Assembly: GCA_003605115.1 (NCBI GenBank)
Contig: QZKY01000011.1
Span: 62,001 to 126,000 of the forward strand
Direction: 5' to 3'
From: Oxalobacter sp.
GTDB taxonomy: Bacteria > Pseudomonadota > Gammaproteobacteria > Burkholderiales > Burkholderiaceae_D
DNA: 64,000 nucleotides
In this document: positions 5,101-23,600 of the stretch, piece by piece
Layout of the letters: each line of letters starts with the position of its first letter
Position numbering within the stretch: the stretch's first letter is position 1
Notes under the pieces: generated by a model
What the model was told of the DNA's origin: nothing
The model's input: only the letters and a program-made list of their open reading frames with translations
Database searches by the model: none
Position numbers and translations under genes: made by a program

Positions 5101-6813
5101 TCAAAACTTTTTCACTTCAATATTGTGCTTCGTCAGCGCGTAAGCGATTTGTCGTGGCGTGAGATTCAGCAGGCGTGCAGCCTTCGCTTGCACCCAGCCG
5201 CATTGCTCCATTGCCCAGATGAGCTTGTCCCGCTCGTTCATGGTGGCGGGGGGGGCTGGCAAGGCAGCTGACGCGCTTGCCGGCACATTGCCGGGATTTT
5301 CTGCCGGTTTTTCCTGCGGGATTTCCTTGATGGGAATAATGGTTTCGTTTGCTGACGCAACATGTTCACTGCTTTCTTTATTAGGCAAGTGAAAGTGCAA
5401 AATCTTCCCCATACATCTGTTTTGCTGGCAGAGCACGTGTACATCCTGAATGACATCGCCGCTCGTCATGGTGGCGGAGCGTTCGATGCAATTTTCCAGT
5501 TCACGTACGTTGCCGGGCCAACTGCATTGCATGAATTGTTTCATCGCTTCTGGCGAAATGCGGAGCTGCTTGCGGTTTTCCCGATTGAAGACATCGAGGA
5601 AGTGCTCAACCAGGAAAGGAATGTCCTCTCTTCTATCACGTAGCGGCGGAATGAAAATGCTGAAGACGTTGATGCGGTAATACAGGTCGGCGCGGAAGCT
5701 GCCGTTCGTCACCGCCTCTTCCAAATTGCGGTTGGTGGCGGTAATCAGCCGCACATTCACCTTGATCGGCTTTGACCCGCCCACACGTTCGAATTCGCGT
5801 TCTTGCAGCACGCGCAGGAGTTTGACTTGAAAGGCGGGGGAAATGTCACCGATTTCATCGAGAAACAGGGTGCCGCCATTCGCGAGTTCGAAGCGTCCTT
5901 TGCGTTCGGCGTGCGCGCCGGTGAACGCCCCTTTTTCATGTCCGAAGAGTTCGGATTCCAGTAGGGTTTCCGAGAGCGCAGCGCAGTTGACCTTGATGAA
6001 GGGGCCATCCTTGCGCGGGCTGAGAAAGTGAATGGCGCGGGCAATCACTTCCTTGCCGGTGCCGCTTTCGCCCCGCAGCAGCACAGTGGATTTCCCCGGT
6101 GCAGATTGGTACACCTCCGCGAACACTTCCTGCATGGGTTTGGAGTAGCCAATGACGTTTTCGAGACTGTACTTGCGCTTGAGTGCCTTGACGAGAATTT
6201 GCTTTTCTTCAAGCAGTTGCGCTCGCTCTGCAATGATGCTTCTGTTAAAGCGCACGGTTTGTCCAATCAGGTTGGCGATCATTGTGAGCAGGCGCACATC
6301 TTTATCGAATGCATTTTTGGTGTGATCGGTGATGACGCGCATGATCGACAGTACACCGATGGTGGAGTGATTTGCCTTGATCGGTACGCCGATATAAGCA
6401 ACGTTTTTTCCGCCCGATTCTTCCACGGACCCCAGCTTGCTGATAAAAAGCGGTTCTCCGGAAATGTCCGGGATAACTGCGGGTGCACCTGTTTTAAAGA
6501 CTCTGCCGGTGATGCCTTCGCCGATTTCGTAACGCACGTCGCGCAAATGTTCTGCCGGAATGCCGGTACTGCCCATCAATCGCAATTGCCCATTCTCACC
6601 TTCCAGGCAAACCATGCCGCGCCAGATACCCAGGTTGACGCTCAGGAGATTTAAGAGCGCGCGGAATACTTTGTTGATGTCCAGGGACGCGCTCAATAAT
6701 TTGCTCACCTCATAGATAGTGCGCAACGCTTCATCTGTTCCCTGCGCGGGAGATTTCCCGATTTCGGATGATGAGGGTGATGTACCGAGGTTTTCATCGT
6801 CTTTGGGTGACAT
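5101..6813 (-). CDS. nifA: NifA, nitrogen-fixation transcriptional activator
   Basis: A 570-residue sigma-54-dependent activator of nif genes. The order is an N-terminal GAF domain (about residues 35-185), a central AAA+ domain with Walker A GESGTGKE (248-255) and the sigma-54 contact loop GAFTGA (295-300), then a linker and a Fis-type helix-turn-helix at the end. Cysteines 430, 442, 462 and 467 form C-X11-C-X19-C-X4-C, the pattern tied to direct oxygen sensitivity in alpha- and betaproteobacterial NifA, where NifL is absent. The start at 6813 is chosen because AGGAGCAGGA precedes it; an upstream in-frame ATG at 6957 would run through the promoter. It is transcribed toward nifB. Confidence 0.96.
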
Positions 6814-6875
6814 ATTCCTGCTCCTGCCTTGTTTGGCTGTGTCGTGGTATGAAACGCCGCTTTTGATTTTCTTTT

Positions 6876-6891
6876 TGCAATATTCGTGCCG
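6876..6891 (-). promoter_or_regulatory. sigma-54 promoter of nifA
   Basis: Minus-strand CGGCAC-N5-TTGCA, with correct GG-N10-GC spacing, about 63 bases upstream of the chosen nifA start. One base differs from the TGGCAC consensus. It suggests that nifA answers to NtrC or to itself. No TGT-N10-ACA site was found upstream before the island boundary at 6987. Confidence 0.7.
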
Positions 6892-6907
6892 CCCCAAATT
6901 GGTGAGG

Positions 6908-6929
6908 TGCAAGTGGCACAGCACTTGCA
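6908..6929 (+). promoter_or_regulatory. palindrome containing a near-perfect rightward sigma-54 promoter
   Basis: The plus strand holds TGGCAC (6914-6919), five bases, TTGCA (6925-6929), which is the full -24/-12 consensus. It lies inside a perfect inverted repeat with arms TGCAAGTG (6908-6915) and CACTTGCA (6922-6929). It points away from nifA toward the island and, beyond it, iscR. It may be a real divergent promoter or an activator site upstream of nifA that mimics one. Confidence 0.55.
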
Positions 6930-6986
6930 TAAAGGACAGTGGATGCGTGAGATACACGAAAACGCCCTATCTTTTAGGGAAGGGCG

Positions 6987-7114
6987 TGGTCACGCTTAAA
7001 TGAAAGCCGAGCTGGATTCCCTCTGTAGAGCCTGCCTCGCCATTTTTCTTTTCAATTGAAAGTTGAGCTAAAAGCTCAAAACGCATGCCTGAATTTTGTA
7101 AATTTAATTGAGCT
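6987..7114 (+). repeat. left-end repeat cluster of the island (three copies)
   Basis: Three copies of a TTAAAT(N)AAGTTGAGCT-type motif in the same direction: 6996-7013 (reads AAAGCCGAGCT), 7053-7069 (GAAAGTTGAGCT) and 7099-7114 (TTTAATTGAGCT). The outermost one is joined to TGGTCA at 6987, which is matched in inverted form at 27177-27182. Confidence 0.6.
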
Positions 7115-7247
7115 GGGATGTAAAGATTTGTCAGTGTGACAATGAAGCATGTAAAGACAAAACCAATCCATTGAGCGATGGGTGGGCATTTTGTTTGCCT
7201 CAGTCAGATTACGTTGTTGTCAGAGTGGAATTTTATTTTTCTTATGA

Positions 7248-7304
7248 AGTTTTATGGAATTTCCATAATTATGGAATTTCCATAATTATTGGATTTTCAT
7301 AAAA
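7248..7304 (+). repeat. left copy of an AT-rich direct repeat bracketing the HEPN cassette
   Basis: Begins AGTTTTATGGAATT and contains two tandem 21-base units made of ATGGAATTTCCATAATT. A shorter diverged copy in the same direction is at 9389-9427. Confidence 0.6.
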
Positions 7305-7471
7305 CGGCATAAAACTTGCGGACTGAGCTGCTCCACCACAGCAGAGCTGTCTACCTTACGGGGAGCCTCAACGGCCTAGGAAACTCGGTCCTTGCCAGTT
7401 TTGTGTTTCACCCTATCTACACGGCCTCCTCCTATTTACCGGACATATTGACCTGCTCCCCGAGATTAGTA

Positions 7472-7557
7472 CGGTGAGGATTTAGAATCTGCAATTAGCT
7501 GATAGCAGCCACACGCAATGAATCAACCGAGCGTCTGGTTTGGCCGAACTACAGCCA
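7472..7557 (+). repeat. diverged third copy of the cassette repeat
   Basis: Shares CGG(T/C)GAGGATT, AGA(A/G)TCTGC and TTTGGCCGAA with the copy at 9227-9314, in the same direction, but the middle has diverged. Together with 7581-7668 it forms a large imperfect inverted repeat. Confidence 0.5.
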
Positions 7558-7580
7558 GTGAAATCCAAATGGCAAATCCT

Positions 7581-7668
7581 CGGCCAAAGCGGAAGTTCAC
7601 GTGGCGAGTGGTAACAGTCGGGAATAATGCAAATAGCAGACTCTGAAGCCTCGCCGTATTAAACTTGG
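7581..7668 (-). repeat. 88-nt inverted repeat, left arm (HEPN cassette)
   Basis: Aligns without gaps to the reverse complement of 9227-9314 with seven mismatches in 88 positions (about 92 percent identity) by eye. The right arm begins 17 bases after the HEPN stop codon; the left arm ends 51 bases before its start. Confidence 0.8.
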
Positions 7669-7719
7669 ACGGCGGGTCAGTTACACATTAATTAGATTGC
7701 CGAGCCAAGGGTGAAATAC

Positions 7720-9210
7720 ATGAGTGCAGCACTATCCAATACTGCTTCTGTACGCAGAAAGGTTGTCGCTAAATCTTTTCGCGACTTTGAGGCCATAGGT
7801 AAACAAATTGTCCGCTTTGGAAAAATGACGCCGGAAAATTTTATGCGTCATTTTAGAGCGAATCCTAGTGACCATTTCTGTTCCCTTCCCCATCCAGAAG
7901 GAAAAGGTTCTATTTTTTGTGGGCATATCGCGTGGAAAAAATTCGATAATCTAGCAAACACACTTATTGAGTACGCGCCTGAACTTGATAAACGCGTTGA
8001 CCTCGATAACGTCAGGAAAATCATAAGAGAAACATATGTTCGCCGTATCTTGCATGACAAGATACTCTTGAATTCAAATTCAACAGAAGACATTCTTTCT
8101 GAAGTTACAGAAAAATTGAAGGGGTCACTCGGGACTACACAGCATCTCTATTCATGCGTGCTTTTCTATAATGGAAGCCCTGACGAATTCCAAGTTGGGC
8201 CAGTCATATTTACGCGCAGCCCAATATTTATTCGCAAAAATAGGCTCAAAATTCGTTCGAGCGTAGAAGAATCAATTGCATCACATATTGAAAAATCCAT
8301 AGAACACCAGGCAAGAAATCATAAATCTACAAATCCCCAAGAAATTGAAATTCACGCTAGAAAATATGTCAGGGGGCTTTATGCGCAAGCTTTAAAGACA
8401 TATCGTTCCTATCCATGGGTGGCGCAGGTGGAAATTAAAAAATGCGACAAAGTCACATCCGATGTATGTGCTGCCAGAACCATCGATGCCGCTTTACACG
8501 TTATTCGGATATTGCTTGGCGCAAGAAATGCTGAACGAATACGTTTAGCTCGTTCCAGAGGAGATGCGCTAAGAACGGCCGATATGTGGATTGATGAATC
8601 AGGAATATTGGGGGTACGTATTAGTTCAAGGAGTATCGGGCCGGTCGGATTCTCAAACTGGCATGATGGATTGATGCAAATCGATGGTTATGAGCTAAAC
8701 CTGCTTGGTTCAGCAATCTCCGTTTTAGCAAACCCGCAAACAGTTTTTCATTTACATCAGCGAGTGTTGGACGGAATTCATTGGTTCGGTGATGCGGCAA
8801 CAGAGCCTGAATTCACGTCCCAAATTATCAAATATACGTCTGGAATTGAACGCCTGATTTTTGGGAAGTTCAAGAAGGGCCAGAAAATGCGATTTGCCAA
8901 TCGACTGAAAGCGGTTTGTAAAGCCTTCGGCTGCGACACTGATGATAAAGTGCACGGCGATGCTTTAGAGGTTTATAAAACCCGCTCTGCCTTGCTTCAT
9001 GGAGATTATTCACCACGCCACGATAATGTTCGCCTAATCGCCAGTAAAGCTGAAAATCTATGCCGACTATGTATCTTATGCCTTATTCAACTGTATCCAG
9101 CAATCCTTGCGAAATTTAATGATGTCGATTCTGAACACCTTGAAAGTATCATGGATGACATTACCGAAGATGCGGATAAGGCACTAATGAAGTGCGGCGT
9201 ATTTGTTTAA
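7720..9210 (+). CDS. ApeA-like HEPN-domain protein, probable antiphage RNase
   Basis: A 496-residue protein. The C-terminal part (about residues 370-480) resembles the Apea-like HEPN domain: GIERLIFGKFKKGQKMRFANR, then YKTRSALLHGD, where R422 and H427 give the R-X4-H motif of HEPN ribonucleases. The long N-terminal part (1-360) has no motif I recognise and may sense the phage. Proteins of this shape abort infection by cutting RNA. The start at 7720 has AAGGG eight bases before it; a GTG at 7711 would overlap that site. The gene stands alone, enclosed by 88-nt inverted repeats and outer direct repeats, and looks more AT-rich than the genes around it. The family call rests on motif and length only. 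Confidence 0.65.
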   Translation: MSAALSNTASVRRKVVAKSFRDFEAIGKQIVRFGKMTPENFMRHFRANPSDHFCSLPHPEGKGSIFCGHIAWKKFDNLANTLIEYAPELDKRVDLDNVRKIIRETYVRRILHDKILLNSNSTEDILSEVTEKLKGSLGTTQHLYSCVLFYNGSPDEFQVGPVIFTRSPIFIRKNRLKIRSSVEESIASHIEKSIEHQARNHKSTNPQEIEIHARKYVRGLYAQALKTYRSYPWVAQVEIKKCDKVTSDVCAARTIDAALHVIRILLGARNAERIRLARSRGDALRTADMWIDESGILGVRISSRSIGPVGFSNWHDGLMQIDGYELNLLGSAISVLANPQTVFHLHQRVLDGIHWFGDAATEPEFTSQIIKYTSGIERLIFGKFKKGQKMRFANRLKAVCKAFGCDTDDKVHGDALEVYKTRSALLHGDYSPRHDNVRLIASKAENLCRLCILCLIQLYPAILAKFNDVDSEHLESIMDDITEDADKALMKCGVFV

Positions 9211-9226
9211 TACGACTGACTCACTC

Positions 9227-9314
9227 CCAAGTTTAATTCGGCGAGGATTCAGAGTCTGCTATTTGCTTTATTCCCGACTGTTATCGTTCGCTACGTGAAC
9301 TTCCGCTTTGGCCG
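9227..9314 (+). repeat. 88-nt inverted repeat, right arm (HEPN cassette)
   Basis: Partner of 7581-7668. It starts 17 bases after the HEPN stop codon, with CCAAGTTTAAT, and ends GCTTTGGCCG. Paired arms could terminate transcription or act as recombination substrates. Confidence 0.8.
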
Positions 9315-9388
9315 AATTGCAGTCAACCGTCGCACGAGGGCATGGCCGTTTTGCTGTGCAAAAGTGTGGGAGGTTTGAGAAATTATTG

Positions 9389-9427
9389 AGTTTTATGGAA
9401 TTCAATAATTATGGAAAATTCATAAAG
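9389..9427 (+). repeat. right copy of the AT-rich direct repeat
   Basis: AGTTTTATGGAATT followed by AATAATTATGG and TTCATAAA, in the same direction as 7248-7304 but lacking one internal 21-base unit. Confidence 0.55.
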
Positions 9428-9461
9428 CTCGATAAAGTGTCACTATTGCGGTAATGCTGCT

Positions 9462-10493
9462 TCAGCGTCTAGAAAGCATGGTTCTCGTGTCCGTTATCGC
9501 TTTAACCAAGGCACACCATCTTCCATCTTCGCGCATTTCTTTGTGGCACCAGATAACGTTTGGTTTTTTAACGTTGTCAAAATTCATGGCATTCCAAGGT
9601 GTGCCAGTGCCCAGTTTTATAAGGATGCAATCGATTATTTCCCGCAAGCTGTGCCGCATTTTGCCTTTTGAAACGATAGGCTCTACGGCAGACCATTCCG
9701 CATCAGACAAACTCCAGATGCCATCACGATGCGAGAGTTCATTTTCTTTTAGGGCGATGGGGGCGCCTCTTACCGTTTGTGCCGCTTTATGGTATTCGAT
9801 GAGACCAGTGTGGCTTGATGCAAAGTCATAGGGTGCCTCAATAGTTTCAACACAAGTGATGGTGATATCGACTACAAGATACTTGCCCTTGCGTAGAAGT
9901 GTTTGCATGACCATCGAGACAATGCCTTCGGGGAGACTCATGGACAGTTTCCCCCTACGTGCATTCTCAAGCACGCTGTTCCACATCCGGTGAGCTGATG
10001 GAAAAGAATACATCCACGATAAAGCGGCAAGCACGGAAGGTAAACGTTTGGTGTTAGTGCCAAGCTCGCGCATCGGATAACCAAAAAAACCGACGCCGCA
10101 TTCTCTGCCCTTAATGTTGGTGACCATAAGGTTATCAAGACCTTGCGGGCTGAATAAATGTTTCGCTAATCCATTGATGGGCTTGAAGACGGCTTTCATT
10201 AATACCGCAGCTGGCACAATGAATTGCTTTCCGAGAGTTTCAAAAGCATAGACGTCTTGCCCGCATACGGTCTGCTTGGGATAGCGCATCCCCGAAAGGT
10301 AAAAGTCGGCAGGTACCTTGGACCAAGAATTGAAGTTGGAGCAAACCTTGATGCGCTTGGCATCTGCGATGACCGATTTGGTGGCAAGCTCGTTTAGCGC
10401 GTTTACGTCGAGTTCTTCTCGGCAGCCTTTCGGCGTAATGGCTTTGATTTGATAACAGCTTCCATTCCATAACACTTTCTCTATCCAGCGCAT
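9462..10493 (-). CDS. protein with unknown N-terminus and IS5-type DUF4096 C-terminus, beside tniQ
   Basis: A 343-residue protein in two parts. Residues 1 to about 250 match nothing I know. From about 260 to 335 it resembles the helix-turn-helix DUF4096 domain of IS5/IS1182-type transposases: WSLSDAEWSAVEPIV, LREIIDCILIKLGTGTPWNA, then a tail in HKEMREDGRW. No DDE catalytic domain follows, so it is not a transposase in itself. The gene lies downstream of tniQ on the same strand, the place held by tnsE in Tn7, but a 457-base gap separates them and it has its own ribosome binding site (AAGGGA). It may be a target selector or regulator, or an IS end fused to another gene. Function not assigned. 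Confidence 0.6.
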   Translation of the reverse strand: MRWIEKVLWNGSCYQIKAITPKGCREELDVNALNELATKSVIADAKRIKVCSNFNSWSKVPADFYLSGMRYPKQTVCGQDVYAFETLGKQFIVPAAVLMKAVFKPINGLAKHLFSPQGLDNLMVTNIKGRECGVGFFGYPMRELGTNTKRLPSVLAALSWMYSFPSAHRMWNSVLENARRGKLSMSLPEGIVSMVMQTLLRKGKYLVVDITITCVETIEAPYDFASSHTGLIEYHKAAQTVRGAPIALKENELSHRDGIWSLSDAEWSAVEPIVSKGKMRHSLREIIDCILIKLGTGTPWNAMNFDNVKKPNVIWCHKEMREDGRWCALVKAITDTRTMLSRR

Positions 10494-10950
10494 TTATACA
10501 CGTCCCTTTGAGTAAACAAGGACGTATAGGAACCGCCGTTCCATTTTTTCGGAGGCAGAGCCTAAAGAGAAGGAAATTGCAAAGTATGGGTGCGTCAGCC
10601 ATCGGGAAACCGGTTAATGTTTGGAATCTTCAAGCTAGTAGTTAATGGCTTTAATCTTATTTGTCGAAAAACAGGCTTTTTACTGCCAAGTTTTCTTGCA
10701 AAATGTCGAATTTATGCCAAATACTCCGCTTTTTTGTCGAAAAGTAGAGCTATTCAATGGCATCTGGTTTCTTTAACACCAACAAAACTCCCTAAGCTGT
10801 AGGGGCTCTTTTAGGGCGGAGCACTCTTGTGTGAGTACTTTCAAGTGACATGATGCGTTTGGGGTCAACTGCGTAGTAACCTTGGCCAAGCAAAGCTTGA
10901 GGAAACAGGTATTCAAGTAATCAGAAATAATGGTCGAGAGAAGGGGCCAA
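10494..10950. other. gap between tniQ and the DUF4096 gene, with three TGTCGAA repeats
   Basis: No gene is visible. Between about 10660 and 10745 the motif TGTCGAA occurs three times in one direction, twice as TTTGTCGAAAA followed by AG(G/A)(C/G). The spacing is roughly 30-45 bases. They could be operator sites for the leftward gene or remains of a transposon end. Confidence 0.5.
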
Positions 10951-12108
10951 TCAAAATGGTAATGACCATTGGCGTTGCTGCATTGGGTTTCCCTGAAGTT
11001 GCTTTAGCGCCAAACAGGTTCTTGGCAGTTTTTCGCGATGTCGCAGAAATAAGTGCCAGACACCCAGTTGCTTTAGCAGTGTGGGGATGTCCATCGGCGA
11101 ATTTGAAATGCCCACGCTTCTGACGGCATCAAAAATTCTCTCCCGAAGTTCATCGTCTAACGAGGGGAACGGTTTGGCAATAGAAAGTTTTGCCAAGGGA
11201 TATGGTTGTTGGACCGCACCATTATTCACCGCTTCCATAAAAGCTTTGAGCATGATGTGCTTCGACGGCGAGAAAGAGGCGTCATTTGCATCTCGAACCA
11301 GTGCAGCGGGCCATGCCCGGGTGCTTGGCTCAAAATCCAGCTTGCCCATTCTCAGGAAATCAGCGCCAAGAGCTTCCCTTAATAACTCAGCAAACAGGTG
11401 CAGAGAAATTCGGGAGCCTTCGATGATTAGGCCGATATGCAAGGCTTTACGGCGGTGTTGCTGCAGCCATTCTCGTGGATGCGCCCTGAAGCGCCTCACA
11501 AGTGCTTTATGGCTGATTTCGGCGATGGCGGGGGCCAGTATATTGGCAGCGTGAGTATTCATGGATTGCCCGATGTCTTGCTTAGGCGGGTGTTTGGTGA
11601 TGCCCTGGCGCCTTGCAATCCTGCGGTCACTCAAGTAAATGACATGCAAGGGTAAGTTGTGGTGAGGGCATACAACGACAAATGGGAGATTGTGCTCCCG
11701 GTGCCAATATGTTTCCCCAAAATGCTGCTGGTCTTCGATTACGCATTGAACGCAATATCTGGGAGCAAGAGGGTCAAGCCATGTCGATGCCTTAAATGGC
11801 CGAATGTCATCAGAGTTATGTCCCAGAATGGCTTGAGCCATTCGTTGTGTATCAGCGCTGCTCATATAGGCGGTCACATAAGGAAAAGGCGTGTGGTCCC
11901 AAAGGAGTTGTAAGGCATCGATATCGCTGGCAAGGCTAATTTCACGCAACCCTGACATCGCCAACAATGGCAGGCGGGTTCGAATGTTTTGCGACAGACG
12001 GCGCGCCAGCTGATTAATTGATACGCCGTGATGGAGGCTCGCTCGCAGTAGCAGGCTGCCGACAAGCTCGTTTGGATACGGTCTTGGGAAATAGTAGTGC
12101 CGGGTCAC
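10951..12108 (-). CDS. tniQ: TniQ/TnsD-family target selection protein
   Basis: A 385-residue TniQ-family protein, which in Tn7-like elements directs the TnsABC machinery to a target site. The N-terminus PRPYPNELVGSLLLRAS is typical. A zinc-finger follows: YCVQC near residue 120, then WHREHNLPFVVVCPHH. At 385 residues it is longer than the TniQ of Tn5053 or CRISPR-linked systems, yet shorter than TnsD of Tn7 (about 508), so the DNA-reading C-terminal part is reduced or different. It starts with GTG, overlapping the tnsC stop by four bases (GTGA). It ends the tnsA-tnsB-tnsC-tniQ operon. Confidence 0.9.
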   Translation of the reverse strand: MTRHYYFPRPYPNELVGSLLLRASLHHGVSINQLARRLSQNIRTRLPLLAMSGLREISLASDIDALQLLWDHTPFPYVTAYMSSADTQRMAQAILGHNSDDIRPFKASTWLDPLAPRYCVQCVIEDQQHFGETYWHREHNLPFVVVCPHHNLPLHVIYLSDRRIARRQGITKHPPKQDIGQSMNTHAANILAPAIAEISHKALVRRFRAHPREWLQQHRRKALHIGLIIEGSRISLHLFAELLREALGADFLRMGKLDFEPSTRAWPAALVRDANDASFSPSKHIMLKAFMEAVNNGAVQQPYPLAKLSIAKPFPSLDDELRERIFDAVRSVGISNSPMDIPTLLKQLGVWHLFLRHREKLPRTCLALKQLQGNPMQQRQWSLPF

Positions 12109-13718
12109 ACAGGCAAAATCTTTTCAAGGTCTGGCAGCATCCCTAAGGATTTCATGCGCTCCAACGCGCTCTCCTGGTCAGACTTCAACAAACCGTTCCG
12201 GTAATCACCTGGGGGATATTCTTCTGGCGGTCTGGGTGCATTTTTGCCTTTAACGGATTTTGTCTTGGTGCCTGAAGTTGACTTGGTCAGTGCCTTTTTG
12301 ACGCCCTCAAGGGCATTTTTTGCGCCATCACGAGCGGCAATTTCAGCCATGTTTTCGGCGTCATCTGCTTTGAAGCCAAGGGTTTCCAGTGCTGAAGCAC
12401 ATGTCGGAACAAACAAGGCGTCCTCTGGCGTGATGTTGGCTCCCGGGACTTTGCGCCCGGCAAATCTTAATTCAATATTTTGTATGACTTCACTGAGATT
12501 TATTGGTGCGATATCGTCAAATCTCATCAGTGCATGTATATCATTTAAACGAAGTGCTTCAATCATGGGTTCGACCATTGCGAGTTCTGTTTTTGCCACT
12601 CGCGCAATGAGTTCTGCTGTGATGGTTTCAGAACCCCCCTCAAGTATGGCGCGGACTTGGGTAGCCGCGAACAGCTTGATGGCGATATCGACGATGCCTT
12701 GGGAGTGGTGGTATAGCATATCCGTAAGAAACGGCGACTTGTCAGCAGGTGTTCTTATCCACTGGAACCTCCACAACGCAGAGACGAAATATTCCCATTC
12801 GTCAGGTGCGTTATGGGTTCCCTTTTTTAAAGCCCCCCAGCTTTGGCCAATGGAACGACGAGCCTGGCGGAAATTTAAAGACAGGAGGTTAGAGGCTTTG
12901 TTTGTGCCGATAAAAAATATCGGGACACCCAGCTCGTTTGATGCGGACACAAGCAGGCTCATAAGTGCATCCCGATTTTTGCGAGAGTTTTCCAGGTTCT
13001 GGATTTCGTCTACAACTAGCAGCCCTACGCAATGTGCATGAAGTATTCGCGCCGCATGGTTCATCAATGTTTCAGCGCCAATGCGACTGTCAAGATAGCG
13101 CTCTGTGTAATTCGCGGCTGGCAAAAGCTGGTCTACTTTTCTGAAGATGGAATGAGCGATGCCTTTGACGCTGGCACCGTCATACGGCGTTTCGATGTGC
13201 AGATACGGGATTTGATAAATCCCATACCTTGGGTGGTATATAACTTCTGGCATGTAGGAAAGCGCACGCTTGACCGTCGTTGTTTTCCCCATGCCTGAAA
13301 GGCCAATGAGAGAACTGGAAAGCTGTGCTGTCGATGAAGATTTTTTGAAGGTCGTCCTGTTTTGGGACATCTCGTGCAGTTTTACAAAAACGCGGTGTGA
13401 TTGGGCTGAGCGCGGGATTCGTCCTACATACCCTTGGCGTATTAAAGCATCAAGTTTTTGTGCTAGTTCAAAGTGCCTGGAAAGAGGCACCATGAAATCT
13501 GACAATTGTGCAATGAGCTGAATGCGTTCATTTGCAGACCATTGCCTTTGTTCTTCGCGAAACGCTGGTACTGAGAAAAGTGTCTCAAGCCATTGCGTAT
13601 CCTCGAGGGAGGGCGGTAGCGCTTCGATGAGTGGATTGCCTTGATATTGCGGAATACGCTGTTCTTTGTATTCGGCTTCAAGGAATTCAGGGGCAAAATT
13701 CTCTAGGTTATTTTCCAT
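12105..13718 (-). CDS. tnsC: TnsC-like AAA+ transposition regulator
   Basis: A 537-residue AAA+ ATPase of the TnsC/TniB family. Walker A is GLSGMGKTT (139-147), Walker B LLVVDE (233-238), and the sensor region reads IFFIGTNKA. TnsC forms ATP-dependent filaments on target DNA and bridges the target selector and the TnsAB transposase. The length is close to Tn7 TnsC (555), so the C-terminal TnsA-interacting region is present. The ATG at 13718 is chosen: it overlaps the tnsB end by 11 bases, as is common in tns operons, and an AGGATATG lies just upstream. An ATG at 13772 would add an 18-residue stretch deep inside tnsB. The last four bases overlap tniQ. Confidence 0.93.
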   Translation of the reverse strand: MENNLENFAPEFLEAEYKEQRIPQYQGNPLIEALPPSLEDTQWLETLFSVPAFREEQRQWSANERIQLIAQLSDFMVPLSRHFELAQKLDALIRQGYVGRIPRSAQSHRVFVKLHEMSQNRTTFKKSSSTAQLSSSLIGLSGMGKTTTVKRALSYMPEVIYHPRYGIYQIPYLHIETPYDGASVKGIAHSIFRKVDQLLPAANYTERYLDSRIGAETLMNHAARILHAHCVGLLVVDEIQNLENSRKNRDALMSLLVSASNELGVPIFFIGTNKASNLLSLNFRQARRSIGQSWGALKKGTHNAPDEWEYFVSALWRFQWIRTPADKSPFLTDMLYHHSQGIVDIAIKLFAATQVRAILEGGSETITAELIARVAKTELAMVEPMIEALRLNDIHALMRFDDIAPINLSEVIQNIELRFAGRKVPGANITPEDALFVPTCASALETLGFKADDAENMAEIAARDGAKNALEGVKKALTKSTSGTKTKSVKGKNAPRPPEEYPPGDYRNGLLKSDQESALERMKSLGMLPDLEKILPV

Positions 13719-15867
13719 CCAGCATATCCTGAAGTTTTTTGCGGCGCGCTTTTTCATTTTCTGAGAGCGCACTGGTTTTTTGCTTTGCGTTGGGTTCAGA
13801 TGGCTGCGTTAACTTTTTGTTGCTTATGTCATATACTTCTGCTGATTGTCTGTGTGATGACTCATCAGAAAAATCTCTGGCTTTCTGTTGGCGTTCCCGG
13901 CGTTTTTCATCGTTACGATTTTTAACGACATTTTTCTTTGATGTTGTGCGAGGTTTCGTCTTGCCTCTTGCCGCGGCTTTTGCTTCTGCCTGGGCCTTTT
14001 TGACGATGGGACTAATAGCCTCGTGGAAATCCAGATTGTTTTGACGCTTGATGTGCATGCCTTCTAGCCTGAGGGATTCTCTGGTAAAGCTCAAAGCTTC
14101 AGCTTCAGCGAAAGATAGTCCACGATACTGTTCGCATGCATCAGTTAGCGTAGCTTCAAAAAAATTGCTTGGGTTTCTGTCATCCTCAATATAAATGTCG
14201 TTGACAAGATTGCGGTCATATCTAACCTCAATTTCGAAAAAATTACGCCTAGCTGCGATAAACCATTCGCGCTCGATGGCTTCTTTGCACGAGTAAAAAC
14301 ACGCCCCTATTCGGATTCCTCTCGGTGTGACCGTGGCGTTCATACGAGGTAAAAGTGCAAATCTGACTTGCTCAGAAGGAATGCGCGCCAATATGCCTGC
14401 ACGTTCGCGAATGCTGGTATTCCAGATGTTAATTGGGGTAGGTTGTATGCCATTTAAGATATGCTCGCCTTCCCAAATATAATCATTAAGTGGAGTTCGG
14501 TTGTGCTTGATGATTCCAAGCAAAATTATCCGCGTAAGTTCATCCAGGTTGTGTATGGCATCTTCTGAATAATCCTTACCTTGCCGTTTCTGCGCTTCAG
14601 CGGGCGGCTGGTAGCCTTTGACTTCGTTAGCCAGTGTTGCGTGTAGCAACTTGAAGCTGCATTCAACGAAAGGCTTATGCCTAGCACGGCCTGGTGACAA
14701 ATTGGTGATTTCTATGTTGAGATTCTCGGCGAGTTGGGTGCTGTTGTGCCCGGTAAACTCTGACCCACGGTCCGCATGGTAATTCTGCGGTTGTATACCA
14801 TCTGCTGGCCAGTCCGTAGGGTCATAGTCGACTCCGTATCGTCTGCAAAGTTTTTCCTTGCTTTCTGAGACAGACATAATGGCGAATTGTGCGGCTGGCC
14901 ACGATGGGTTTTCAAATCCCACGTAAAAGCCGACGATTAGCGTGCTCTTCCTGTCAACGATTAAGTATAGGGTTGCCTTGCCGATGATTGCGAGTCTGTT
15001 AAGAAGGGAAACAATCCAAAGGTCAGCAATGGTTGCATCTATTTCATACACTTCGCCAACAGCGTAAGTGCTATCTCTGAAGCTTCCAAGCTTCTCGGCA
15101 AAATTGAGCTCATATTCCTTGCTTCCTTTCTTGCTTCGGATAATGGCTTGCTTGGAGAGTAACTTACTTGCGTAATAGCGAAACTGTTGTTCGCTTGGAT
15201 ATTCTCCCAATGGTTTCAGAATTCGTTGACCTTCATTGTCGAAATAACTGTAATGCTCATTGAGTATGGTTTGGTAGCAATCACTCAGTTTCGTGACTCT
15301 GTCTTTTAAGTAATTCGACTTGATGTGTCGGGCGATGATGTCCCTGTCTTTCTCTGACATTTGGAAAATGACGCGCTGGAGATATTTTGGAGGCCGCCCT
15401 CTGCCGGCTGTATCACCAGCAACGCTACCGCGCTTACTGAAATCAGGCTTGAGTGCGTTGAGCGTCTGACCGTTTTTCCACCATTTGCGAAAGTCGCTGC
15501 GTATTGTTTGGGGTGAGCAGCCAATCTCTGCGGCTCTTTGTTTGATTAATTTTTCTCGTGTCTCGCGTTCAAGGATTGCTTCGTCGTTCAGAATCGGTTC
15601 GATTCTGGAAAATATCAATTTGCAATATGCCTGCTCGGTTTTGCTGAGCTTCAGGGCGAGAAATTTCCCTGTTCCAGACTTCCGCTTGATGTAGCCTTTA
15701 TGAAGACTTCCTTCAACCTCGCTATAGGAAAAGGCTTTAGGGAGTCCTTTTTCATCGAGAACGTTGAACAGCCATATTTTGTTTTTTCTAACGTCAATGC
15801 GTATTACTCGGAACAGCACATCGGCGTTGTCTGTTTCCAGGACATCGTTGAGAAGAATGGGTTGCAT
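13708..15867 (-). CDS. tnsB: TnsB-like DDE transposase
   Basis: The 719-residue transposase that cuts and joins the 3' ends of the element. It has N-terminal DNA-binding domains (helix-turn-helix near GCSPQTIRSDFRKWWK), an rve/DDE core with D277 (YEIDAT), D366 (HADRGSE) and E402 (KPFVECSF), then a Mu-type beta-barrel and a lysine-rich tail that would touch TnsC. Spacing of the three acids is close to Tn7 TnsB (D273, D361, E396). The start at 15867 follows GGAGGA and comes one base after the tnsA stop. All catalytic residues are intact, so the enzyme could be active. Confidence 0.94.
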   Translation of the reverse strand: MQPILLNDVLETDNADVLFRVIRIDVRKNKIWLFNVLDEKGLPKAFSYSEVEGSLHKGYIKRKSGTGKFLALKLSKTEQAYCKLIFSRIEPILNDEAILERETREKLIKQRAAEIGCSPQTIRSDFRKWWKNGQTLNALKPDFSKRGSVAGDTAGRGRPPKYLQRVIFQMSEKDRDIIARHIKSNYLKDRVTKLSDCYQTILNEHYSYFDNEGQRILKPLGEYPSEQQFRYYASKLLSKQAIIRSKKGSKEYELNFAEKLGSFRDSTYAVGEVYEIDATIADLWIVSLLNRLAIIGKATLYLIVDRKSTLIVGFYVGFENPSWPAAQFAIMSVSESKEKLCRRYGVDYDPTDWPADGIQPQNYHADRGSEFTGHNSTQLAENLNIEITNLSPGRARHKPFVECSFKLLHATLANEVKGYQPPAEAQKRQGKDYSEDAIHNLDELTRIILLGIIKHNRTPLNDYIWEGEHILNGIQPTPINIWNTSIRERAGILARIPSEQVRFALLPRMNATVTPRGIRIGACFYSCKEAIEREWFIAARRNFFEIEVRYDRNLVNDIYIEDDRNPSNFFEATLTDACEQYRGLSFAEAEALSFTRESLRLEGMHIKRQNNLDFHEAISPIVKKAQAEAKAAARGKTKPRTTSKKNVVKNRNDEKRRERQQKARDFSDESSHRQSAEVYDISNKKLTQPSEPNAKQKTSALSENEKARRKKLQDMLDGK

Positions 15868-15868
15868 T

Positions 15869-16711
15869 TCAATTTCCTCCAACTGAACGCAGTTCGTTCC
15901 TGCCTCTGCGGATGAAAATCCCGATAGGCGCGTTTGGCAGGTCAGGTTCAGTCATGTTGGTCACAATCTCCTGGCTTAATAAAAGCATGCGTATGACCCT
16001 TAGCCCGGTGCCTAGTTGTGCTCCAGTCCGTTCGTCGTAGTTTTGACAATACGCCGCTAGCGATAAAGATGAAGATGTTCGGGACAGTTCATACGAAAAT
16101 CTTGAGCAATGCTCTTTAAAATAGTTTGGGTAGGGCTCAATTTCGCCAGGCTTGATGACAGCGGAGCGTATCCATTTGATATTTTTGATTTTGTTTTCAG
16201 GAAGCATAGAGTGGAATACCAAATGGTGAGCAATTCCGCACCCATTAAAATAACGCCGCTGAATTTCCAGCTTTTCGATGGCCCTCAGGTCATTAGCGTC
16301 TTCAGCGCGTTTGCAATTGAAAGCCTCTATTGTTTCTTTGTCGTTTCGGAGGCGCGTAACCAGAAAATCACAGGTCATGACTGTCGGAATCTTTGTTTGT
16401 GGATAGGTTGGGTGTTTTATGCCCATTTCTGCTGCGAGCGAGACGGTGTCCTCGCGTGTTAATGGATATTGCTCCCGGATGTCGATGACGTCCGGCGTAA
16501 ACTCGAGAAGCATGAAGAGATTGCGTTCGACATTAGAGAACAGGTCATGGACCCGCCCTGTTTTATGGCCGAAGATTCGGTGAGTGTTGCCCTTCGATGA
16601 AAACTCATTCGCCAAAATCCAGGGAAGATACTGGTCGAGCGTACCTTTGCCGCGACCTTCTTTTTGAAGCTGCCGGATTTTTTCCTCCGTCATTACGCGT
16701 CGATTTGCCAT
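15869..16711 (-). CDS. tnsA: TnsA-like endonuclease
   Basis: A 280-residue restriction-like nuclease that cuts the 5' ends, allowing cut-and-paste rather than copy-in movement. Likely catalytic residues are E62 (NVERN), D115 (TCDF) and K134 (NCKR), which correspond to E63, D114 and K132 of Tn7 TnsA. The C-terminal winged-helix region is present by length. AAGGAG precedes the ATG. A 108-aa gene lies 27 bases upstream on the same strand and tnsB follows after one base, so these form one operon. The presence of TnsA separates this element from the Tn5053/Tn402 group, which lacks it. Confidence 0.93.
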   Translation of the reverse strand: MANRRVMTEEKIRQLQKEGRGKGTLDQYLPWILANEFSSKGNTHRIFGHKTGRVHDLFSNVERNLFMLLEFTPDVIDIREQYPLTREDTVSLAAEMGIKHPTYPQTKIPTVMTCDFLVTRLRNDKETIEAFNCKRAEDANDLRAIEKLEIQRRYFNGCGIAHHLVFHSMLPENKIKNIKWIRSAVIKPGEIEPYPNYFKEHCSRFSYELSRTSSSLSLAAYCQNYDERTGAQLGTGLRVIRMLLLSQEIVTNMTEPDLPNAPIGIFIRRGRNELRSVGGN

Positions 16712-17386: not shown

Positions 17387-18805
17387 TTATCTAGGGGTAA
17401 GTATAGGAGTGGGTGAACAGACTACTACTCGACGAGCGCCTCTGGTAAGGGCAACGTATAAGTGTTTTGCATTCATTCTTTCTGGATGAAGCACTACTGC
17501 CACATCAGCCTCAAGTCCCTTCAATAAGAGAGTGCTACCAACAGAGCGGCGAGATAGCGGGCGACCCGCATGCCTGTGTTTTTCCCGTTCGTGGATTGCC
17601 GCAGCGTGAAATGTGCGCCCACCATCTGAAGCTGCCAGCATCGCAGCCATGCAACTACGCAGAATAGCAGGTCTATAAACGCGAACGCTTTGTTGTTCTG
17701 AAATTTGCCTTAGTACATTGAGAGCCGTGGCCAAGCTGGGATTGGCGGAAAAGGTAATTGCAGCAACCTCCGCTGAATTAGGCGGGTTTCTGGCAGTGCC
17801 TTGTCTAATGCTATTTATGCGACGAAGAAACTCTGGGGCTCCAACATTGGTCATCGTTTCACCTGCAAAATTCACAAGGCGAGTTAGAGCATCGTTTGCT
17901 ACAACATCGAAGCCCTGGCTAAAGTTGGTTAGGTCTTTTAAATCCACAGGTTCAACAGTAGCGGCCCCAGGGGTTTTGCTTGCCATAAAGTGACGTCCTT
18001 GAGCATTTACGCTGTCACCAATGACGAGTACTGTGCCGTCGCGATTAGGCGCCCTAGTGCGCGCTGCTTCAATGCGCTGTTTCTCTTCCGTGCCTGCCGC
18101 GAGCTCAACCCAGGTTACCTCATCAGGGCTTGTTCGCAAGTCAATCGCATTTCCTCCGGCTAGCTTTTGTCTGCAGTCAAGAAGCCAATGACCAAGTGTC
18201 TCCGTACCCGCGTTACGCCACCGCCACGGAGTTTGTAGTTCACCAATGGCAGGGAACTGAGTCAGAACATTGGTATCCCAATCTACAAGTTGATTGCCGC
18301 GAAAATTGAAGATGGCCTGCATGGGGTCCCCAAGTACGCAAGTTGGCAAAACCATCGCAGCCCAGTCAACGATAGCGTGTTGCTCAAGTGAGCAATCTTG
18401 GTACTCATCAACAATGAGACGAGAGTAGGTTGCTTGCAATATGTCACTTAGATGTCCTGCTTGAAGAAGACGCCAAGCCGCGCCTCGTATTGTGGGGTAA
18501 TCCCTTCCGGGGTTGTCGAGATTGAGGATGTTGGGTGGTAGTCCGCTTCGCATAGGGAAGGTGCCAGTGAGGCGCATAGCGAAGCCGTCAATGGTCATGA
18601 CACGGTAAGTTGAATTCGTAACATCAGCGCGCTGAAGCCGTGTACGTAATGCACCGGCTCCTGCATTTGTGTGCGTCAGAACCAAAACTGGTTTTTTAGC
18701 TGTATGGCGCTTGAGGGTGTCAGTAATGAGCTGCGTTTTTCCGCACCCAGCTGGTGCTGTGACCGTTCCACGTGAAGTAGCGAAGATGTCGAGCTCAAGT
18801 GGCAT
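17387..18805 (-). CDS. gajB: GajB-like UvrD-family helicase
   Basis: A 472-residue superfamily 1 helicase. Walker A is APAGCGKT (about 17-24), motif II reads LIVDEYQD, the Q-D pair GDPMQAIFNFRG is motif III, and motif VI is HLYVALTRGARR. Motif IV is weak. The protein is the second gene of a two-gene unit with the OLD nuclease, overlapping it by 11 bases. OLD nuclease plus UvrD-like helicase defines class 2 OLD proteins, which includes the Gabija phage-defence system; Bacillus GajB has a similar size. Its likely role is to sense or process phage DNA ends and activate the nuclease. The gene symbol is by analogy. Confidence 0.75.
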   Translation of the reverse strand: MPLELDIFATSRGTVTAPAGCGKTQLITDTLKRHTAKKPVLVLTHTNAGAGALRTRLQRADVTNSTYRVMTIDGFAMRLTGTFPMRSGLPPNILNLDNPGRDYPTIRGAAWRLLQAGHLSDILQATYSRLIVDEYQDCSLEQHAIVDWAAMVLPTCVLGDPMQAIFNFRGNQLVDWDTNVLTQFPAIGELQTPWRWRNAGTETLGHWLLDCRQKLAGGNAIDLRTSPDEVTWVELAAGTEEKQRIEAARTRAPNRDGTVLVIGDSVNAQGRHFMASKTPGAATVEPVDLKDLTNFSQGFDVVANDALTRLVNFAGETMTNVGAPEFLRRINSIRQGTARNPPNSAEVAAITFSANPSLATALNVLRQISEQQSVRVYRPAILRSCMAAMLAASDGGRTFHAAAIHEREKHRHAGRPLSRRSVGSTLLLKGLEADVAVVLHPERMNAKHLYVALTRGARRVVVCSPTPILTPR

Positions 18806-20531
18806 GGGCCCATCCCAAAAGGTCCATCACGAGTGCCTGAAATGCAGGGTCCGCGTTTTGTAAGTTGGGTCCGACAATATCGCGAGCAACACCTTCGAAT
18901 TTCCCAACAGATTTAAACCAACCACTATTTCCATTTTTGCCTACTCTGGATGCCTTCCCCAATAATGTACGGGCTTCATTGGTGAAGCCAACTAAGTTGG
19001 CTTCGGCGAACACAGATTCAAGAGTTGCCTCACCGGTAGACTTGCTGAGAATATGGTTGTTGACCAATTCCTCCCCGACCAATTCAATAGCGTACTGTAG
19101 GAGGGACTGAACTGATTTGTCATCCATACTTAAAAACAATTCGTCTTCAAGAGCTCTATTTTCACGCCATGTAATATGGTGACCACCGGCCCCCACATAG
19201 CGGTTAATGATTTCTTGAGTGGCAGGTTTATCATTATCGACTAGTACCATTACGCGATAACCTAAACTCAGAAGGGCGTTACCACGCGCATAGCATTTAT
19301 CAGGGTTTCCGCCTCCTACATTGACGTATGCTATGCCTTTTGCCCAGAGCGAGGGGTGTCCTTGCGTAACGTAATATTCATCCAAACCACGAACAAACCC
19401 AACTTCGCTAGCCCCTTCGCATACGATAACTGTTCGTGCCAGAAAGGCCTCGGGGTCAAGGCGAATCGTGCTTTGAACATCATCTTCCGTACCGACTCGC
19501 AGGACTTGATGGCCTTCTGCTATGGTTCGGACAACAAAAACTTGTTTGCCGTTGAGTTCTCGCACTGCTACAGGCGAATGAGTTGTCATGAAAACTTGGA
19601 GCGGAGAGGTGGTTTCTTTTGCGCCCAAAGAACCCAAGAGACGTATCAGCCGATGCGGTTCGAGTCCATGCTCCAACTCATCCACAAGAATAATCGATGC
19701 ACTATTAGCAGCAGCCCGCTGAAGTCCTGCAACCAAGAGCTTGGTTGACCCTGTTCCCAAGGAGCGCAAAGGAATACCGTTTTCGCTGTGAAGCGTAATT
19801 GCTCCATCGCCGATTGATACTGAGTGTGCATCAAGAAGGGCCTTGGCGTTTCCGCCAATTGGAATCCCCAATGAAGCGGCAGTATTAGTAACGGTTTGCA
19901 ATGCGTCAGTAAATTGGGCGTCAGCTTGGTTGCCAAAGTTTGCACGTGCTTCGCGTGCTGCGCGTGCTAATTCTGGCCCCAAATTTGCGCGTTCGTCCGA
20001 GAGGCGATTAAGTACGGACCCTCTTGTCCAGGATAGGTGTGAATGCGTATAGTTGCCAAGCCGGGCTGGGGAGATGCTTATCCGGTCTTTCCAGTTGATA
20101 CTGCGTTCTATCCCTTGTTGCTGCGCTCGCCGAGATACCAGAGACCAAGTTGGCTCCAAATCACCTGACACAGTCAAATTGAGAACGAGGACGGTTTCAA
20201 AGCCGTGACGAGGCTCTTCCTCAACGCTGCCTGTCGTGGCATCAAAAGCGCACAGGAAATCCCCATAGCTCTCCAAGTTTTTTAATTGGTCTGGAAGTGC
20301 GCCGAGTGTCAGCGTGATGCCAATAGGGCGAGTGACATCAAGGTTGAAAAAATCTGTATCACCAAATGAGATGTTGCGGCGAGCACCAAGGCATAAGTCG
20401 ATGGCATCTAGAATGGTGGTTTTACCGCTATCACCAGGCCCTATTAGGCAATTAATGCCTTCAGATGGAATCCAGTTTAGCACTTGAATTGAACGGAAAT
20501 TGCGGATTTCTATTTTTCTAATACGAGCCAC
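18795..20531 (-). CDS. gajA: GajA-like OLD-family ATPase/TOPRIM nuclease
   Basis: A 578-residue protein with an N-terminal ABC-type ATPase: Walker A GPGDSGKT (31-38), Walker B ILVDELEHGLEP (about 281-292), H-loop TTHSP (316-320). A TOPRIM nuclease domain follows with CEGASE (E372) and VLVDNDK (D432, D434). This order and length fit GajA of Gabija, a nuclease that nicks DNA when nucleotide pools fall during infection. The start is GTG with AGGAGA in front; the first residues ARIRKIEIRNFRS are typical for the family. The overlap with the helicase gene implies coupled translation. An alternative is another class 2 OLD system with the same layout. Confidence 0.8.
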   Translation of the reverse strand: MARIRKIEIRNFRSIQVLNWIPSEGINCLIGPGDSGKTTILDAIDLCLGARRNISFGDTDFFNLDVTRPIGITLTLGALPDQLKNLESYGDFLCAFDATTGSVEEEPRHGFETVLVLNLTVSGDLEPTWSLVSRRAQQQGIERSINWKDRISISPARLGNYTHSHLSWTRGSVLNRLSDERANLGPELARAAREARANFGNQADAQFTDALQTVTNTAASLGIPIGGNAKALLDAHSVSIGDGAITLHSENGIPLRSLGTGSTKLLVAGLQRAAANSASIILVDELEHGLEPHRLIRLLGSLGAKETTSPLQVFMTTHSPVAVRELNGKQVFVVRTIAEGHQVLRVGTEDDVQSTIRLDPEAFLARTVIVCEGASEVGFVRGLDEYYVTQGHPSLWAKGIAYVNVGGGNPDKCYARGNALLSLGYRVMVLVDNDKPATQEIINRYVGAGGHHITWRENRALEDELFLSMDDKSVQSLLQYAIELVGEELVNNHILSKSTGEATLESVFAEANLVGFTNEARTLLGKASRVGKNGNSGWFKSVGKFEGVARDIVGPNLQNADPAFQALVMDLLGWAHAT

Positions 20532-20608: not shown

Positions 20609-23600
20609 TTAAGCTATCGCCCTCTGCCAAATCTCTTCAAGCACCCGCACCAACTGGTCTACTTTCGCTGACGGGAACAAACCTTCCGGCCCTTGTGAAT
20701 TGAGGTCGGTGAAGGGCGATTCGTAAAGTCGCGTCGGTTCCATCACGCCGTTTTCCATCAGGTGCTGCACGATAAGTTCGATGAACTCAATCTGGTTCGG
20801 TGTGGCAGTGGTGCCGCTGATGAATTCGCTGAGTGCCTGCATGGCTGCTTCGCGCTCCAGGCCAACCAGCGAGCGGATGAACAAGCCCAGCCCTTTGCTT
20901 TGCTCTTTGGCCTGCTGTATCAACTCCGACGAGCCACCCGCGTCCTTCAGCATCTTCTCCAGTTCTTCCAGGTCGGCAGGGGTGAGCGGCTGATTGCGGC
21001 GCAAGCGTTGCAGCGAGAGGTGCGACTCACGCCCTCTCAAGAATGCACGTGCTTTTTCCTTGAACTTCACCATGTTCAACCCCGCCGTAATTTGCGGTAG
21101 GTCGATGGTTACGCCTTCGCCGAGTTCATCTTCAAAATTGGTATAAACAATTATTTTTTTGCCTTTGGGAATCAGCTTCACGAGTGCGCGTAGTCTGCGC
21201 CGAACATTTTCCAGCATCGGCACGGTAACGCCTTCCCACCATTCCTCACTACCAATAGACTGGATGAGCACGATTTCCGCCTTAATGGCGGGAATGGCCG
21301 TTTGTTCTTCCAGTGCGCTAGCAATCGCCTGAATTCTTTCCTTGAGTCCGCTCCAATCCGGTTTGGCTTGCAGAATCGCCAGTTGCGTGCGCAAGGCCAG
21401 CATGTCGAAGCGCTTGGCTTCTTCGTCATCGTCCGTCAATGCGCTGGGCAGGTCGGCAACATGATGTGCCAGTTCTTCGGCATCTCCCTTGCTCAGGTTT
21501 TTCCAGGCATCGGCCTTCATGAATTTTTCAACGTGCTTGCGCTGCGGACGCACGACGAAATTATCCAGCTTCATGGCCGCAACAATCTGATGCAGCAACC
21601 CGGCGGTATCCTCGCGCACCTGCGCCACCGTCAGATGGTCGGCATATCCCTCATGCGCCTGTTCGACTTTAGTACCCGTTTGCTGTTCGGTATTCAGTAC
21701 GGCATCCAGCCCCGCGATGAGTTGCAGTCTGCCCTTGAACAAGCGCGTGCCCAGCGGCTCGGTGCCCCCTCCTTCTTTGAAATCCGGGTTCTGGTTGAAG
21801 AATTCCAGGTTCTGGCAGAAGTCGAAGATGTAGAAATTTTGCTTGTCCTGGCCCGGCGCAAACAAATCCTTGCACAGTCGCGTGCCACGCCCCACCATTT
21901 GCCAGAACTTGGTGCGCGAACGCACTACCTTGAAGAACACCAGGTTGACGACTTCCGGCACGTCAATGCCGGTATCCAGCATGTCCACCGAAATGGCGAT
22001 GTGGGGCGCCGACCCCTTCTTTGAAAAATCGTCGATAAGGCTTTGTGCGTATTCCGTTTTATACGTCACCACACGGGCAAAATGGCCTTTGTAGTGCGGG
22101 TAATTGGCATCGAAGCGTTTTGCGATGTAATCAGCATGGTCATTGTTCTTCGCAAAGATGATGGTCTTGCCCAGCCGGTCACCGCCTGCCACTTTCTGGC
22201 CCTTGGTCATCAGAGTTTCCAGTGCCTGGTCCACCGTACTTTCATTGAACAGCCACTTGTTGACGGCTTCGGCATTGACTTCATCGGGTACATTGCCGTC
22301 TTCATCCCACTCCAGTGCATCCCATTCTTCCTTTTCTGCTTCCGAAAGCTGGTCGTATTGGATGCCTTCGCGCAGGAATTTCAGCGGTACGGAAACCGGA
22401 ACCGCTGGAACCAGATGACCATCCGCCACCGCCTGCGCCAAATCATAGGCATCGGTCGGAACGCCGGTTTCCAAATCGAAGAGGCCGTAAGTATTGTGGT
22501 CGATTTCATCCTTGGGCGTGGCGGTCAGCCCCACCAGCAGTGAATCGAAATAATCAAAAATGGCGCGGTACTTCTGATACACGGAACGATGCGCTTCATC
22601 AATTACGATGAGGTCGAAATGCCCCACACCAAAGCGGCGTGTGTCATTGCACACGTCGTCTATCAAGTTCATCATTGTCGGGTAGGTGGAGACATACACG
22701 CGCCCTTCCGTTGCCTTGTCCGTCACCAGATTGACAGGTGCTGCATCCGGCAAATGCGTCTTGAAGGCATTCACGGCCTGATTCACCAGCGCCACGCGGT
22801 CAGCGAGGAAAAGGATGCGTTTCGCCCAGTTGCAGCGCATCAACACATCAGCCAGTGCAATGACCGTGCGCGTCTTGCCGGCACCCGTGGCCATCACCAG
22901 CAAAGATTTGCGCAGGTTGTCATTCTCGAAGCTGGCACCCACACGGCGTATGGCGCGGGTCTGGTAATAACGCTCGACGATGTTTTCATTGATGATGGCG
23001 TCGGCAAGCTTGCGGCGGCTGGTGCGGCGCTGCACCAGCAATTCCAGTTCATCTTTCTTGTAAAAGCCTTGCACCTGGCGCGGCGGGTAAGCCGCATCGT
23101 CCCACATCCAGTGTTCGTAGCCGTTGGAATAAAAGATGACCGGACGGCGGCCCGACATTTTTTCCAGGCAATCCGCATAAAGCTTTGCCTGCTGCTGACC
23201 TTCCATCGGGCTGCGTGTGGTGCGTTTGGCTTCAATCAGCGCCAGCGGTTTGCCATCTTCTCCCCAGAGCACATAATCCACAAAGCCCTTGCCTTCAGCA
23301 TTCGGCATGCCGGTGACTTCCACCTCAAAGTCTCGCTTCGAGTCAAGTTGCCAGCCCGCTTCCTTGAGCAACAGGTCGATGAAGGCTGTGCGGGTTTGCG
23401 CTTCGGAATAATCATGCGTGTCAGGAATGGCAATGTTGGCCTGCTTTGCTGCTGCCACTTGTTCGCGAAGCTGTTTGAGCTCTTCATCCAGCAAGGCTTT
23501 GCTGGAGAGCACCGCAGAAAGCTGTTCATCTTTCGCGTGCAGGTCAGCTTCAAGCTTTTGCAGCTGCGCCTGCGTTTGCGCGCTGCTGATAGGAATCTTG

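Follow-up and report, generated by a model that had tools for sequence, protein, structure and literature searches.

A probable HEPN gene between inverted copies of a dispersed repeat: a likely non-autonomous module in a Tn7-like defence island of Oxalobacter sp.

In dif modules, the sites that bound the enclosed genes are inversely oriented. Modules of this kind on Acinetobacter plasmids, bounded by pdif sites, contain accessory genes bracketed by short sites and no mobility gene, according to the accessible part of their description. Integron cassettes and integrase-less attC clusters hold single accessory genes beside palindromic recombination sites that can form arrays, with one site per gene and all sites in one direction. 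Non-autonomous short elements that flank a gene and are moved in trans have been reported as TIME-COMPs, IMU and MITEAba12, inverse orientation being common for one of them; in the accessible portion of that source they are complete miniature elements on both sides of the gene, with Tn3-type ends and often with direct repeats (PMC13367494). Finally, the commonest insertion sequences (IS) in Tn7-like transposons are reported to be of the IS3 family, sometimes paired around genes (PMC8649781, accessible portion).

The locus described here lies in a window of 64,000 nucleotides from Oxalobacter sp. (the window being the whole stretch of DNA analysed). Its function recalls that of dif modules and of MITE- or TIME-bounded composites, but the tests do not establish membership in any of these kinds. 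The best explanation is that the enclosed probable HEPN gene and its two arms form a gene module that is not autonomous and sits within a Tn7-like defence island, a reading that we consider probable. The features are listed below by window position; R1 and R2 denote two profiles of the repeat, R1 built from arms A and B and copy C, and R2 solely from 21 copies outside the window.

7252-7302, no strand: three tandem 17-nt palindromes of the TTATGGAATTTCCATAA type, on the outer side of the left arm
7449-7562, plus strand: copy C, a diverged third copy facing arm A; its far-left 44 bp (7449-7492) correspond to an IS3-family end, and 7484-7556 is the R2-type repeat
7449-7679, no strand: copy C and arm A jointly, a 231-nt imperfect palindrome
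7580-7668, minus strand: arm A, inverted copy of arm B, with its gapped tip at 7679
7578-7644: R2-type dispersed repeat of arm A
7580-7598, reverse strand: outward terminal motif of arm A, GAACTTCCGCTTTGGCCGA
7720-9210, plus strand: probable HEPN (ApeA-like) gene, the cargo, with ATG 7720 as likely start
9227-9315, plus strand: arm B, a 92% inverted match of arm A, with its tip at 9217
9251-9324: R2-type repeat of arm B
9297-9315: outward terminal motif of arm B, GAACTTCCGCTTTGGCCGA, then ATTGCAGTC
9409-9425, no strand: related 17-nt palindrome on the outer side of the right arm, one clear copy
9462-10493, minus strand: gene with an IS5-like DUF4096 C-terminal part, following TniQ
10951-16711, minus strand: Tn7-like core, the setting of the module
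10951-12108: TniQ, above the Pfam cut-off
12105-13772: TnsC-like ATPase, TniB/AAA above the Pfam cut-off
13708-15882: TnsB-like, assigned by gene order together with rve and Mu-transpos_C matches below threshold
15869-16711: TnsA, above the Pfam cut-off

The first-pass annotation of this DNA had described 88-nt inverted arms of about 92% ungapped identity, set close around the gene and with no transposase between them, and these points were confirmed. In its alignment frame, 81 of 88 positions are identical (longest exact run, 22), compared with 44-50 of 88 when positions 6500-10500 were dinucleotide-shuffled 20 times and the best inverted match of each shuffle was taken. Over 89 nt (7580-7668 against 9227-9315), the inverted match is 92%. 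It ends outward at the terminal motif (7580 and 9315), and gapped similarity extends geneward to 7679 and 9217. The ATG at 7720 lies 51 bases past arm A, the open reading frame (ORF) ends about 16-17 bases before arm B, and inspection of the ORFs between the arms gave no transposase-like frame.

The third copy previously placed at 7472-7557 is also real (blastn, 78.6% in a 42-nt match and 84% in a 19-nt match). Together with arm A it forms a palindrome whose DNA fold stands out (z -6.5; 0 of 200 shuffles as good), and which is taken for either a miniature element or a pair of back-to-back module ends. Arm B is a half-copy. Folds of single arms were not clearly better than those of shuffles (z 0.06, 1.35, 0.31, -1.66 and 0.56), and a search of 6000-11000 for RNA families gave one chance-level match only (a plant microRNA model, E 0.27). 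The earlier suggestion of repeated insertion at the same place holds in part: copy C does stand back to back with arm A, but no partner end was found for it, and its far tip is that of an IS3-family element.

Following the proposal of the first-pass annotation, the repeat was sought elsewhere and was found on another contig of the same genome (C4) and in relatives, around other accessory genes. At E<=0.1, R1 matched 25 of 176 genomes. Two parts of R1 are separable, positions 1-50 matching IS3 ends and positions ~34-113 matching the dispersed repeat, which shows that the gene-distal part of the arms is a rare dispersed repeat. The sequences for R2 were found through R1, so R2 is a consistency test and not an independent discovery. 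It recovered copy C at E 1.9e-14, arm B at 8.4e-14 and arm A at 3e-11. Within the genome itself, R1 at E<=0.1 matched A, B and C and two further places, both on C4 (five matches in all), and R2 gave only A, B, C and the C4 pair at E<=1 in 455 kb. Three of 12 loci with weak R1 matches (L099, L103 and L107) gave an R2 match at E<=2e-3. The Tn7-like, HEPN-relative and other context controls (L006, L008, L039-L041 and L048) gave none at E<=1.

Searches in other collections yielded little. DNA of arm B had no match in phages (query 9200-9480) or, at E<=1, in plasmids (9205-9340); four plasmid matches of its outer part at E 3-9 were taken for chance. The left flank (7100-7710) had no match in E. coli genomes, the repeat of locus L074 none in plasmids, and an exact pattern of the inner arm part none in the genome contigs or viral contigs sets. 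Patterns of the terminal motif were met in 3 of 148 relatives alongside 1 control match, and in 0 and 1 stretches of viral contigs.

The two C4 copies, 1.3 kb apart, bracket a single SEC-C gene divergently, as in the window; its neighbours are presumably hslU and gpsA, as read from ORFs. Further pairs were as follows:

L065, divergent R2 pair: ABC-3/ZnuA zinc-transport operon and a third frame
L066, divergent R2 pair: gene pair weakly matching the PADLOC candidates PDC-M65A and B
L067, divergent R2 pair: 230-codon frame
L074, divergent R2 pair: 224-codon frame, related to the 230-codon frame of L067
L070, divergent R2 pair: three short frames
L107, divergent R2 pair: five frames
L067, same-direction pair: HipBA
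L046, same-direction pair: phosphoesterase gene
L071, same-direction pair: 143-codon frame

The cargo varies between loci and the repeat brackets persist. Single R2 copies were seen at L068, L069, L075 and L076. The first-pass annotation had held that ordinary dispersed intergenic repeats with no link to cargo genes would speak against its idea of a cassette; the repeat is indeed dispersed, yet it is linked to cargo in the loci seen. Beside plasmid relatives of the SEC-C and PDC-M65B genes, R2 was absent at E<=1 (0 of 4 loci checked, of 32 matching records). Cargo and repeat are therefore separable, and such genes also move otherwise.

Neighbouring R2 matches separated by 0.3-6 kb were compared for orientation. 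Of the 11 such pairs at E<=2e-3, 8 are divergent, 3 share a direction and none is convergent; with the window left out, 7 of 10 are divergent (P 0.0035 for p 0.25). The excess varies with the cut-off: at E<=1e-4, 5 of 8 pairs are divergent, and 4 of 7 (P 0.07) once the window is excluded. Matches with E >2e-3 were omitted (L070 7026-, L072 16434-, L073 970-, L067 6816-, L065 4118+, L066 7530+, L116 and L096), some of which overlap a stronger match on the opposite strand. Convergent neighbours occur solely back to back with no gene between them, as with C and A and in L066, which is what stacked modules would give.

The best evidence that the repeat-gene-repeat arrangement is a unit that moves or is copied comes from L067 and L074, two loci of one genome (G002) of the same genus as the window. 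When these loci of 12-13 kb were compared, a single common stretch was obtained at E<=1e-3, of 1,052 bp and 82.7% identity, which holds one gene and both its repeats. The match begins and ends in TTCGGCC...GGCCGAA, the terminal motif of the repeats, and conservation of the terminal palindrome's outer arm continues in part past the match boundary. One copy adjoins HipBA; from the ORFs, we take the other to lie between tig and radC. This duplication, one case only, suggests transfer or copying as a unit, and no relative of the protein was found in plasmids.

For the terminal motif, 29 of 31 ends were aligned, two without GGCCGA being dropped. The outward ends form an imperfect palindrome, roughly GNCNGCTTTGGCCGAANTNCAGYC. 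Covariation did not single it out (z 2.0 at the palindrome register against 2.7 at another register), and no target duplication was evident by eye beside 8 pairs, for which the exact ends are uncertain. Neither an empty site nor an enzyme was found.

With these data, the described systems can be set apart. Genes between inversely oriented sites are found here as in dif modules, 8 of 11 pairs being divergent, but the repeats are unlike dif (mean 10.6 mismatches of 22 to the consensus, in 30 repeats, against 10.9 in random stretches), their context is chromosomal and of Burkholderiales type, and the brackets are ~75 nt or longer. The attC boxes, RYYYAAC...GTTRRRY, were present in 0 of 30 repeats; random stretches have them at 0.4%, so what counts is that genuine attC sites would carry the boxes. 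Unlike the sites of integron cassettes, the brackets are also inverted. MITE and TIME composites differ from this locus, which has a half-copy as its right-hand bracket B, ends of another type and no evident target duplication. As for IS pairs in Tn7-like transposons, which likewise place a gene between two related mobile-element sequences, the brackets here lack a transposase, and a clear IS end is found solely at the far tip of C.

Taken together, we observed the inverted arms, other genes and operons bracketed alike, and one module at two loci of a single genome of the same genus, where the match ends in the terminal motif. The divergent bracketing elsewhere and the duplicated module lend support to the first-pass reading of a non-autonomous mobile cassette. 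In the module proposed, an accessory gene would lie between two divergent copies of the dispersed repeat, whose outward ends would carry the imperfect palindrome. Such modules would move or be copied as units, at or near the terminal motif, and the recombinase or transposase that acts on this motif would be supplied in trans. The HEPN module of the window may itself have moved by this route. More broadly, and tentatively, there could well be a family of transposase-less modules, with one or a few genes apiece, that occurs across the order and is unrecorded in searchable papers: each module would have a divergent repeat pair ending in a GGCC-centred palindrome and be moved in trans by a recombinase, with back-to-back stacking and with defence, toxin-antitoxin and other accessory genes as cargo. 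Six spellings of the terminal motif had no match in the open-licence literature searched, and among the titles listed there none fitted such modules. Many defence and toxin-antitoxin genes are scattered singly with no visible vehicle. If the repeat pair marks a vehicle, single-gene acquisitions could be defined edge to edge, accessory genes could be found by their brackets rather than by their neighbours, and the identity of the enzyme working on the terminal motif becomes a concrete question.

Because the far-left 44 bp of copy C are an IS3-family end, the main alternative sees in the arms remnants of IS3-family elements, or of miniature elements derived from IS3, that flank cargo, so that the locus would be a decayed composite element in the Tn7-like island. 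We consider this unlikely. Against a profile of IS3-family ends, built from 22 distinct pattern-picked strings (at least three of them apparently matched by chance), copy C scored E 6.4e-12 and arm B 0.032, and C and A form a palindrome tipped by TG...CA; the abundance and pairing of IS3 elements in Tn7-like transposons, as reported in the portion of PMC8649781 cited above, would fit as well. Arm A, however, reached merely E 0.58, no better than an unrelated place (0.56), and clear IS3-type ends are thus seen in C alone and not on both sides. The dispersed part (model positions ~34-113) occurs elsewhere without an IS tip, and R2 gave no match at E<=1 in five plasmid loci with IS ends of this kind. 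The left flank (7100-7710) matched 8 plasmid records, from Burkholderia, Mycetohabitans, Caballeronia and Cupriavidus, over the IS3 end alone. A single query, run with no positive control, gave no relative of IS3 OrfA in the genome itself, and the tips face the gene, so that the gene would lie between elements. Arms as IS3-derived miniature elements were dropped as the main reading after the R1 results and the G002 duplication; the faint likeness in B and the tip on C mean that IS3-derived pieces may still be involved. At another locus, L010 (G028:C1 near 563065-563107), the frame behind an IS3-family-type end is short and unlike the usual OrfA start.

It is improbable that the repeats are ordinary REP-like dispersed palindromes, placed by chance or by a preference for gene ends. 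Short tagged palindromic repeats with no dedicated transposase do exist (PMC3733652, accessible portion), and the several single copies and three same-direction pairs would suit them, but the repeat is rare in its own genome, where both clusters surround one gene each, the duplicated module of G002 ends at the repeats, and A and B match each other at 92%.

That the arms act on the gene, by pairing at transcript ends (the structured transcript controlling a toxic RNase of the first-pass annotation, not supported here) or by inversion of the segment as a switch of the RNase, is very improbable: they do lie tight against the gene and could form an 88-nt pairing, but a relative of the gene in genome G086 has no such arms, the repeats also stand around unrelated genes, single arms are not clearly structured, and the longest exact run of 22 nt is short for efficient homologous recombination.

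Returning to the module, its gene is probably a HEPN RNase of defence type, judging from its translated sequence. The listed ORF has 499 codons and opens at GTG 7711. As to the first-pass label of a HEPN defence gene, the Pfam match to HEPN_Apea (PF18739; E 0.021, 15.7 bits) stays below the cut-off of 24.4; an R-x4-H motif (RSALLHGD) is present in the protein and conserved in one relative of 45-46% identity. We take R-x4-6-H, present in both proteins, to be the catalytic motif of HEPN_Apea. This sole close relative found, in G086, adjoins type I restriction-modification genes and is surrounded by no inverted pair >20 nt. PADLOC and NCBIfam gave no match, a PDB profile search had a best E of 0.76, and an AlphaFold model of the single protein was unusable (pLDDT 35.6). 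HEPN relatives were absent from the genome contigs set, plasmids and viral contigs. In whole genomes, the own one included, they were found in 2 of 100 and in 2 of 399 (the same G086 relative); in a further set 2 of 398 matched, the other one at a marginal 26%.

The arms and gene are cargo near one end of a Tn7-like transposon, and we infer that the gene encodes an antiphage RNase riding in its defence island. TnsA, TnsB, TnsC and TniQ are all present, TnsB by sub-threshold matches and gene order, and arrays resembling TnsB sites are found near 6995-7115 and 26863-27176. Deeper in the same island are Gabija genes and a type I restriction-modification system. As additional observations, the Gabija pair (GajA, GajB; 17387-20531) is complete, and the restriction-modification system spans 20609-26700. 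By eye, the element could extend from TGGTCA (6987) to TGACCA (27182), with GGCG on both outer sides; this possible element (~6987-27182) reads as lying between nifA-like and iscR-like genes. The 17-nt palindromes outside the arms recur, with 7 matches in the window at <=3 mismatches against 0.14 expected.

The gene at 9462-10493 joins an unrecognised N-terminal part to an IS5-type DUF4096 end, and its product is a candidate target-selector or accessory transposition protein. Genes of this type were matched in 4 of 250 genomes, the own one included, and in G258 the core has the same order with such a gene likewise behind TniQ (translations read by eye). No inverted pair >=26 nt was found in the stretches beside three relatives, and the bracketed gene therefore looks like variable cargo. 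The terms IS5 and DUF4096 are absent from the accessible text of a survey of Tn7 target selectors (PMC10293859). Another Tn7-like region of the same genus was recognised by eye from its ORFs (L046 and L047; G002:C20:25001-58000), in which partial copies of an intergenic repeat (143 bp at 87%, 57 bp at 96%) occur in three places and in one direction.
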